A DNA stretch of 38,482 nt from a virus, in IMG/VR virus record IMGVR_UViG_3300042806_000067, positions 1-38,482 of that record; one strand, given 5' to 3'. Positions 14,476 to 17,224 of this stretch are shown here, piece by piece. The notes under the pieces were generated by a model. The model searched no databases, was not told where the DNA came from, and saw only the letters and a list, made by a program, of their open reading frames with translations. The translations under genes were made by a program, and so were the position numbers. Every line of letters begins with the position of its first letter. Position 1 is the stretch's first letter.

Positions 14476-14778
14476 TTAGGCCAGTGCGATGTCAGTGATT
14501 ACAAGGTTGTCATACCAAGTGCCAGCCTTTTTGCCAGCCTTGGTTTCCATGTAACCATTGATGTTGACCACTGCGTCTGAGGTATCCACAAGATTTTTGC
14601 GGATGAACTCAAGGTGGTCAGGGTTAGCAGTAGTCACGATGCGGGAAGCAACGAAGACGGATTGGTAGGAACCGTCTGGTTGAGCAACTGCTCTGGTGTC
14701 AAGGATACCAAGATTAAAACGGTTCTTGTTATCCCAGACCTTGTTAACACGGGCATTCTCAAATGAGAACTTATTCAT
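14476..14778 (-). CDS. putative single-stranded DNA-binding protein (OB-fold)
   Basis: A 100-aa protein starting at ATG 14778 with AAAGGAG seven bases upstream. The pattern resembles a short SSB OB-fold: FSFENARVNKVW at the N-terminus, YQSVFVASRIV (strand), HLEFIRKNLVDTSDAVVNIN (helix then strand) and MET..GKKAGTWYDNLVITDI at the C-terminus. It lacks the acidic SSB tail, so interaction with helicase or primase would be different. As the first gene of the leftward unit it should be made early and strongly. Match is by pattern, not by signature residues. Confidence 0.6.
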   Translation of the reverse strand: MNKFSFENARVNKVWDNKNRFNLGILDTRAVAQPDGSYQSVFVASRIVTTANPDHLEFIRKNLVDTSDAVVNINGYMETKAGKKAGTWYDNLVITDIALA

Positions 14779-14794
14779 GATTATCTCCTTTACA

Positions 14795-14842
14795 CTAGGG
14801 GACTTTTCCCCTAGCACTAAGCGCAGGGGAAAATCCCATGCG
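14795..14842 (-). promoter_or_regulatory. two stem-loops just upstream of the SSB-like ribosome-binding site
   Basis: CTAGGGG (14795-14801) pairs with CCCCTAG (14808-14814) and ends 3 bases before the AAAGGAG. Next to it, CGCA..GGG (14822-14829) pairs with CCC..TGCG (14835-14842). Both lack U-tracts and lie in the 5' leader. Confidence 0.55.
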
Positions 14843-14877
14843 GTTATTAGTTATTTACTAACAACAAGTCCCACATT

Positions 14878-15024
14878 ACATGGCTGTCAAGCCCAGTCTT
14901 TTCATGGGCTTTACTGCCATGTCAGCACGAAATTTATTATTAACTGAGGCGCCCATTTACTAATGGCCTGCGCCGAAGACTGCTATCCGCTCAGCGTCTC
15001 TCTAATCAGGACAACCAGGTCCTG
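14878..15024 (-). ncRNA. highly structured 5' leader / candidate noncoding RNA
   Basis: Consecutive helices: ACATGGC (14878-14884) with GCCATGT (14916-14922) enclosing AGCCCA/TGGGCT with a 5x5 internal loop; GGCGC..CCATT (14948-14957) with AATGG..GCGCC (14962-14974); CTGAG (14944-14948) with CTCAG (14990-14994); CAGGAC (15007-15012) with GTCCTG (15019-15024). No long coding frame covers 14820-15000. It could be a leader regulating the SSB gene, a separate RNA, or an origin structure. Confidence 0.5.
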
Positions 15025-15130
15025 TATGTGATGTAGGCTGAGTCGTATTGACCCCAGAGTGATTAATGGAGAGTAGAAGTAGTATATGTATCAGCAATAA
15101 AGATTTTCCCGTACAAAGTATATCCCCCAT
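15002..15130 (-). CDS. 42-aa possible leader peptide with hydrophobic segment
   Basis: The ATG at 15130 has AAAAGGA seven bases upstream. The product is MGDILCTGKS, then LLLIHILLLLSI (hydrophobic), then a polar Thr/Pro-rich tail. It lies in the leader of the leftward transcript and covers the CAGGAC hairpin. It may be a small membrane peptide or a translated leader; coding status is uncertain. Confidence 0.3.
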   Translation of the reverse strand: MGDILCTGKSLLLIHILLLLSINHSGVNTTQPTSHTGPGCPD

Positions 15131-15165
15131 ACTAGTATCCTTTTGTCCTATTTTGTACTGATTTT

Positions 15166-15194
15166 TTGGCTAATAAAAAAATACTTTGTTTAAA
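15166..15194 (+). promoter_or_regulatory. weak rightward promoter candidate
   Basis: TTGGCT (15166-15171) and TTTAAA (15189-15194) with a 17-base AT-rich spacer. It would drive the terminase operon. The match is moderate and the AT-richness makes chance likely. Confidence 0.25.
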
Positions 15195-15227
15195 AGTGTT
15201 CGTTTTGGGCTGTTGAACGGATTAAAC

Positions 15228-15258: not shown

Positions 15259-15279
15259 GCAAGTCCTTGGGGGACTTGC
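15259..15279 (+). other. perfect 8-bp stem-loop upstream of terminase
   Basis: GCAAGTCC (15259-15266) and GGACTTGC (15272-15279) with loop TTGGG. No T-run follows. It lies about 50 bases before the terminase start and could be a leader hairpin or part of a packaging (cos/pac) site. Confidence 0.4.
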
Positions 15280-15331
15280 GTTACAGGATGTACTGAATGA
15301 CTGTTACAACTAATGAAAACGGGACAGGACT

Positions 15332-17224
15332 ATGAGTTTTGAAAAGGGGGGTACTAACCCCAAATCTCTTGCTATGGCAGGAGCAAAGGCTAAAGTTCTA
15401 GCCTTGGTGGCCGAAGGCCACTCTGTCCATAAGGCTATGGAGAAGTGCGGCAAAAAACCTGACACTGTAAGAATATGGATGCTCAGGGATAAGAAGTTTG
15501 CTGCTGACCTAACGGAGGCTAAAGCCACCGCAAAGGATGCTTCCCTTGCCTCGCTGGGTATCCCAAAAGAGGAAATAGATTTCCCCCAGTTTTCGCAAAT
15601 TTTTTTAAATCAAAGATTATTTCCACACCATCAAGATTGGATTGACTTACTAGAGGATAGAGAGCCTTCGTGGCTCCACCCTAGTATGGTTTACGAAAAG
15701 GGTGACCCAGCCCGTCTATTGGTTAACGTGCCACCTGAGCACGCCAAGAGTACCGTAGTCACCGTAAACTACTCCACATACCGTATCGCTCTCAATCCAA
15801 ATATCCGCATTATCGTGGTTTCTAAAACGCTGGTCAAGGCACGTGAATTCGTGTACGCCATCAAGCAGAGACTCTCCCATCCACGCTGGTTAAAGTTGCA
15901 AACAACTTTTGGCCCCGAAGGTGGTTGGAAAGAAGATTCAGACACTTGGCGAGTTGACACCGTTTACCTTGGGAGCGATGCTAGAAATTCTAGCGAGAAG
16001 GACCCCACCATCCAAGCACTTGGTATGGGTGGGCAAATTTATGGAGCACGTGCTGACCTCATCATTCTTGATGACTGTATTACAACAGCCAACGCCCATG
16101 AATGGGAAAAACAAATCAACTGGCTACAAAAAGAAGTTATTACCCGTCTGGGTAAAAATGGTAAGTTACTAATCGTAGGGACACGAATTGCAGCGCAAGA
16201 CTTCTACAAAGAACTCCGTGAGACCAAGCACTGGTCTGGTGGTAAAAGCCCTTTTACTTATATGGGCATGCCTGCTGTTCTTGAGTATTCGGAAGACCCT
16301 AAAGACTGGAAGACGCTCTGGCCTAAGTCGGACCTTCCTTGGGATGGGGATTCTGAAGAACCTGACGAAGAAGGACTCTTCCCGAAATGGGATGGCTTAG
16401 CATTAAAGAGAAGACGTAGCGAGGTAACACCATCAACATGGGCCTTGGTATATCAGCAGGAGGATGTCGAAGAAGATTCCATCTTCCCACCCGCTTTGGT
16501 GCAAGGTAGTACCAACGGTCAACGCAGAAAAGGTCCATTGCGCCAAGGCGGCGTGGGACATCCGACTGCGGTAGAAGGTTACACAATTATTGGATTTGAC
16601 CCAGCGATGGGAGACAAGGCTCATGCAGCCTTCGTTGTGATTACTTACAACAGAATAGATTCTAGAATATATGTTTTAGATTGTATTAACATGGGTGAAC
16701 CGAACCCGCAAAAGATTAGAAGTACAATAGAAGAACTTGTATTGAAATACAAGCCACAAGAATTTAGAGTAGAAATCAACGCCCACCAGAAGGCATACTC
16801 ATTAGATGATGACTTGCGGCAATGGCTTGGTATGTATGGTGTAAGACTTGAATCTCATGTTACTAACAAAAATAAGTGGGACGCAGCATTTGGTGTAGCA
16901 TCTATGTCTACCTTATTTGGAACCATGCGAGAAGAGAAGTTCCAAAAGAATAATATGATTGAACTACCATCTACTACTGACTCTGAAGGACTTAAGTCCC
17001 TTACTCAGCAGTTGATAACTTGGAAACCTAATAGCAGGGGCAAGACTGACTGCGTTATGGCGTTATGGTTTGCTGTGCTTAGAGCACGGGAGTTCATGCA
17101 ACAAACAAATCATTTGCAAAAGTTTTCATCTAATAGATGGACAACTAGAGCACAGTCAGCACAAAGATACACAATCAACCTAGACGAAGCCTTTTCAGAA
17201 CAATGGGCCGAACAATACGGATAA
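15332..17224 (+). CDS. terL: terminase large subunit with N-terminal small-subunit-like domain
   Basis: A 630-aa packaging motor. Residues ~14-65 form a helix-turn-helix-like domain (ALVAEGHSVHKAMEKCGKK, then TVRIWMLRDKKFAADL) of the kind found in small terminase subunits. The ATPase follows with Walker A VNVPPEHAKST (131-141) and Walker B LIILDD (243-248). The nuclease has GFDPAMG (Asp423), FRVEINAHQ (Glu481) and GKTDCVMALW (Asp573). No separate small subunit gene is visible, so this single chain may do recognition, translocation and cutting. ACAGGAC precedes the ATG. Confidence 0.92.
   Translation: MSFEKGGTNPKSLAMAGAKAKVLALVAEGHSVHKAMEKCGKKPDTVRIWMLRDKKFAADLTEAKATAKDASLASLGIPKEEIDFPQFSQIFLNQRLFPHHQDWIDLLEDREPSWLHPSMVYEKGDPARLLVNVPPEHAKSTVVTVNYSTYRIALNPNIRIIVVSKTLVKAREFVYAIKQRLSHPRWLKLQTTFGPEGGWKEDSDTWRVDTVYLGSDARNSSEKDPTIQALGMGGQIYGARADLIILDDCITTANAHEWEKQINWLQKEVITRLGKNGKLLIVGTRIAAQDFYKELRETKHWSGGKSPFTYMGMPAVLEYSEDPKDWKTLWPKSDLPWDGDSEEPDEEGLFPKWDGLALKRRRSEVTPSTWALVYQQEDVEEDSIFPPALVQGSTNGQRRKGPLRQGGVGHPTAVEGYTIIGFDPAMGDKAHAAFVVITYNRIDSRIYVLDCINMGEPNPQKIRSTIEELVLKYKPQEFRVEINAHQKAYSLDDDLRQWLGMYGVRLESHVTNKNKWDAAFGVASMSTLFGTMREEKFQKNNMIELPSTTDSEGLKSLTQQLITWKPNSRGKTDCVMALWFAVLRAREFMQQTNHLQKFSSNRWTTRAQSAQRYTINLDEAFSEQWAEQYG

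Follow-up and report, generated by a model that had tools for sequence, protein, structure and literature searches.

The stretch of DNA analysed here (the window) is a virus contig of 38,482 nucleotides (IMG/VR record IMGVR_UViG_3300042806_000067), whose gene content includes WhiB, a sigma-like factor, a glycosyltransferase, a toprim protein, a DnaB-like helicase and TerL. The terL gene (15332-17224) is read rightward and encodes a terminase large subunit resembling the T7 type, with an N-terminal helix-turn-helix (phrog_38, E 4e-71; HTH_23), which scored 74 bits against NF033889 (termin_lrg_T7; E 8e-21), below the model cut-off of 150. The helix-turn-helix resembles a terminase small subunit, as if both subunits were fused. 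In the terL leader, a hairpin formed by GCAAGTCC and GGACTTGC (15260-15281) shows compensatory changes in relatives. The window TerL shares 59% identity with the TerL of OX376640, which according to its record description is Planktophila phage LanE43AprE7 (E7), isolated like phage F5 on Ca. Planktophila (PMC10202952). Both isolates have whiB and a sigma factor in common with the window, and E7 carries TTTAAACACTCTGGGGTCA upstream of terL; the hairpins described below for the ssb leader were not found in E7. The putative host of the window phage is a freshwater actinobacterium.

The first leftward gene (14476-14778) encodes a protein of 100 amino acids that matched no model in Pfam, PHROGs or NCBIfam. 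The name ssb was nearly discarded for want of family matches, but the predicted fold then backed it: single-strand-binding proteins (SSBs) are the best PDB matches of the AlphaFold2 model (pLDDT 93.5; Foldseek E 2e-5, VIA Z about 12). An earlier note, made from the sequence alone, had already called this gene product an SSB, and its identity as an SSB-type OB-fold protein is thus confirmed by predicted fold, not by sequence families. The Shine-Dalgarno sequence of ssb, AAAGGAG (14785-14791), is invariant in relatives.

A chain of hairpins upstream of ssb

The same note had reported a dense set of RNA helices at 14795-15024, and all the stems that it named were found where it had placed them. 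Read leftward, as all hairpins are given here, the first is H1 (15038-15057), a weak form in the window, whose 5' arm CTGGGGTC finds a partner, not always the same one, in about 90% of 125 diverse sequences. Relatives such as L225, L259, L290 and L234 have the partner of this invariant arm upstream of it and not downstream. The hairpin CAGGAC/GTCCTG (15007-15024) occurs only in the nearest relatives of the window. It is followed by H3 (GGCGC-CCATT/AATGG-GCGCC, 14948-14974), which is present across relatives, among which a G-C pair has changed on both sides to C-G. Hairpin P4 (14878-14922) consists in the window of ACATGGC/GCCATGT enclosing AAGCCCA/TGGGCTT, with arms of 18 nt that are 89% complementary; this is its type A form, which in relatives is swapped for type B or for a three-way junction. 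P5 (GTTGTTAGT/AACTAATAAC, 14843-14865) displays the strongest covariation of the leader. Last come H5 (CGCATGGGATTTTCCCCTGCG, 14822-14842) and H6 (CTAGGGGA-AAAG-TCCCCTAG, 14795-14814), the latter directly 5' of the Shine-Dalgarno sequence and ending 3 bases before AAAGGAG (5 before the GGAG-proximal core as aligned). H6 pairs in 99-100% of cells, its substitutions being G-C to G-U or A-U to G-U. According to fold energies, H5 and H6 can merge into one long hairpin (-26.6 kcal/mol) that differs by 0.8 kcal/mol from the separate hairpins (-25.8 kcal/mol).

The leftward strand of 14795-15024 folds with -92.2 kcal/mol, compared with -64.8 +/- 4.5 kcal/mol for 200 dinucleotide shuffles, none of which was as good (z -6.16). 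A good fold is obtained for the complementary strand too (z -5.59), which is what perfect inverted repeats would lead one to expect.

Conservation, strand and novelty of the leader

Relatives were collected by searches with SSB (46 loci) and TerL (80 loci), and motif scans added many more. About 40 related phages retain the helices from 14974 leftward, with paired changes. Two main types of ssb leader can be told apart by their middle hairpin: type A is that of the window, and type B carries TTGTCAAGC/GCTTGACAA. When all 66 cores were placed in one alignment, a strict, R-scape-like test returned no significant pairs; the upstream part, which includes the terminal repeat, aligns poorly and stems have been exchanged between groups, which accounts for this result. 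Covariation was therefore tested within leader types, and one core structure common to all is not claimed. In the 13 type A leaders 100% of cells pair. In the 23 type B leaders the figure is 98.4%, with ten pairs changed on both sides versus 4.9 in shuffles (0 of 500), and sliding the partners by 1-3 columns left only 31-44% of cells paired. When P5, H5 and H6 were aligned across both types (alignment A5), 98.4% of cells paired and 36 were double-changed versus 13.5 after shuffling. Five of the nine P5 pairs change on both sides in A5, and under a null that keeps the phylogeny the two best-scoring column pairs both lie in P5 (E 0 and 0.01). Structure is conserved by compensatory change in type A, in type B and in the joint alignment. 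Long-range pairing of GUCUUC or UCUCC with the Shine-Dalgarno sequence was also considered and dropped, these elements being invariant or absent in some relatives.

The non-Watson-Crick pairs tell the two strands apart. In the leftward sense, 22 G-U stand against 6 A-C pairs in type B (alignment A2) and 8 against none in type A (alignment A1), which sums to 30 versus 6; A5, whose sequences overlap with these, gave 18 versus 2. Note that these counts are cells and not independent events; by distinct types, the ratio is 15 to 6. The predominance of G-U points to RNA read leftward, or to the leftward single strand, as the functional form. Furthermore, among the relatives' loci the P5-H5-H6 unit was seen only directly before ssb. 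Compensatory structure and a fixed place before one gene family, two of the features expected of a conserved cis-regulatory leader RNA, were both found.

A match to a known RNA family, named in the earlier note as counterevidence to a novel structured RNA, was not obtained: Rfam yielded no hit at the gathering score in the window and seven relatives, and nothing credible at relaxed thresholds. GOLLD and ROOL, large ornate noncoding RNAs of which some reside in phages (PMC12286853), did not match either, and the window element differs from them in measuring only about 200 nt and in appearing to act in cis. Given conserved structure, covariation, the G-U bias of the leftward strand and the absence of an Rfam match, the proposal of a novel structured RNA stands, and the hairpin chain before ssb most likely represents a new regulatory leader RNA.

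A probable DNA end within the region

The earlier note overlooked that the region it reported contains a probable physical DNA end. This end, on the terL side, was placed at 14980/14981 from contig ends (in leftward sense ...GATAGCA, cut, GTCTTCGG) and lies 6 bases from H3. Contigs bearing terL often stop within the leader. The reference point for these ends is the conserved motif TTAATCACTCTGGGGTCA of the TTAANCAnnCTGGGGTCA family (15049-15066, leftward strand), which precedes terL in phage E7 and in well over 100 contigs; GGCGCCTCAGTTAA alone proved too short to be specific as a search motif. Thirteen distinct contigs of related phages end 65-76 nt after TTAANCAnnCTGGGGTCA, while about one would be expected if roughly 38 distinct ends were spread uniformly over 440 nt. 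Several of the 13 carry short C/T-rich untemplated tails (TCTCT, TTTCCT, CCTTCTTC, TTTTCC). A second, smaller group of contig ends lies 98-113 nt after TTAANCAnnCTGGGGTCA, on the far side of H3. On the ssb side, contigs begin at or near GATAC or GTTAC (L035, with the tail GAGAG, L484, L200, L219 and L299), which maps the opposite end to 15092. Just outside this second end, TGTACGGGAAAATCTTT (15099-15115, leftward strand) is conserved in relatives and may be a terminase site, and possibly belongs to a promoter. In genome contigs, a TerL search returned no relatives, and the motif gave scattered matches in unrelated bacteria, among them one in a freshwater MAG (L409) that showed no TerL.

In the window, 112 bp separate the two end positions, and the simplest reading is that 14981-15092 is probably a direct terminal repeat. 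Besides the two ends, the T7-like TerL and the genome of Streptomyces phage Zeigle (MT684596.1; Beephvirinae, Manuelvirus) agree with this assignment. An exact 264-bp terminal repeat lies between terL and the early operon of Zeigle. As in the window, the two are divergent, and a long noncoding leader separates them together with the repeat, which is a probable one in the window. A cos site was rejected on account of the distance of about 112 bp between the ends and the Zeigle repeat in the same place. It is possible that the contig ends are assembly breaks at variable junctions. With T7-type repeats the window would have in common a TerL resembling the T7 type, a short direct repeat and a hairpin beside the cut, but its repeat is deduced from contig ends instead of virion DNA and is unrelated in sequence.

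These findings alter the extent of the reported region. Its conserved part holds as leader, which in fact reaches down to 14779, while CAGGAC/GTCCTG falls into the probable terminal repeat and outside the conserved leader; the portion within the repeat (14981-15024) probably serves packaging. They also raise the question of whether the hairpins next to the end act as DNA, in packaging or in duplication of the terminal repeat, and are merely carried along by the mRNA. Hairpins are thought to take part in T7 concatemer processing, and the closeness of the probable end to H3, the few contigs ending on the far side of H3, the retention of H3 in phages with quite different downstream genes and the T7-like TerL would fit such a role. 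On the other hand, the G-U bias favours one strand, phages whose TerL proteins are closely related can differ completely from P4 to H6, and the distribution of P5-H6 goes with ssb and not with terL. We therefore regard a purely DNA-based function as rather unlikely.

What follows the DNA end also varies among phages. Where a related TerL is combined with a different first gene, another structured sequence of roughly 270-520 nt takes the place of this segment (fold z -2.4 to -13). A three-way junction, in which the arms covary and the junction bases GTCAAAT, TTGTCGCCC and GGGCAAGAGTGAC are invariant, recurs as a module; in L012 it replaces P4, and P5-H5-H6 before ssb are retained. The junction (GTCAAAT..ATTGTCGCCC..GGGCAAGAGTGAC) was seen in the leaders of L012, L052, L054, L064, L068, L073, L075, L094, L107, L214, L222 and L291, and Rfam had no match at any of these loci that was scanned. 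The genome end could be the site at which members of a new class of phage structured RNAs are exchanged; the modules, which lie between the packaging end and the first early gene and range in size from a single hairpin up to about 520 nt, would share one job in the early operon, a generalization that we put forward only tentatively and consider doubtful.

Another conceivable role of the leader is processive antitermination, in which it would be read by RNA polymerase early in the leftward operon in the manner of HK022 put RNA or rrn leaders. All relatives have the leader where the early operon begins, and in the same position the early leader of Zeigle (43.3-44.6 kb) contains two copies of a sequence resembling CTTGAGAACTC. 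In two actinobacterial genomes this element precedes the 16S rRNA by about 180-210 nt, beside TTGACA-like sequences, and the Zeigle leader may mimic a host rrn leader. However, Zeigle has its own leader of about 1.28 kb with these rrn-like elements, hairpins shared with the window were not found in it, and no rrn-like element is present in the window or in near relatives. Together with the exchange of whole modules instead of conservation of one element, this makes antitermination improbable in our judgement.

A model for the ssb leader

We hold with moderate confidence that 14779-14980 forms the structured 5' leader of the leftward early operon and most likely sets ssb expression in cis, while 14981-15024 belongs to a probable terminal repeat used for packaging. 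A cis-acting leader that controls ssb is favoured by the link between P5-H5-H6 and this gene, by the location of these hairpins just ahead of the ribosome site and by the nearly equal energy of the merged H5/H6 form. Structure, conservation, covariation, strand preference, position and the SSB fold were established; for transcription, switching and trigger, we infer the following course. The leftward early transcript would carry H3, P4, P5, H5 and H6 up to the ribosome site of ssb, and fusion of H5 with H6 would alter access to this site or to an RNase. The last two hairpins are a possible switch, as judged from predicted energies, although the ribosome site is masked only partly in the merged and in the separate state. 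Not all relatives can adopt the merged form equally well (L030 and L039 have A instead of T), and such a switch is consequently not strictly conserved. The likeliest single trigger would be SSB itself, which would then repress its own gene.

An autoregulatory leader bound by SSB, one of the options raised in the earlier note, is plausible, given the SSB fold of the next gene product and the occurrence of P5-H5-H6 only before ssb. The T4 gene 32 leader is structured, autoregulatory and situated directly upstream of a single-strand-binding protein gene, and its ribosome site is A/U-rich. The window resembles it in having a structured 5' leader directly before the gene and an A/U-rich ribosome site, and the next gene encodes a protein with the predicted fold of a single-strand-binding protein, as in a gp32-type arrangement. 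In contrast to the T4 pseudoknot, the window leader consists of serial hairpins and is without an Rfam match.

The start of transcription is the weakest point of the model, since a promoter search recognised none for the leftward transcript and the only conserved candidate (15081-15115) is a stretch that would be split by the probable terminal cut in linear DNA.

The earlier note had also offered a replication origin, to which a source of replication primers may be added. A toprim protein and a DnaB-like helicase are among the window proteins, no DNA polymerase was noticed among the translated leftward genes, and AT-rich sequence with repeated AGGACA-like words (15127-15200) is conserved among relatives. 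This AT-rich tract is a possible origin, but it lies outside the reported region, and the hairpins themselves bear the marks of an mRNA leader, so that an origin or primer function for them seems very improbable.

In the cis-acting leader reading, the leader of a phage SSB gene here contains an unnamed, well-supported RNA structure, and the region also yields a candidate map of genome ends. Its source phages are related to those of the abundant freshwater Nanopelagicales, and related phages have been isolated in culture. Where conserved sequence and RNA-like structure occur in such regions, packaging signals can mix with mRNA leaders.
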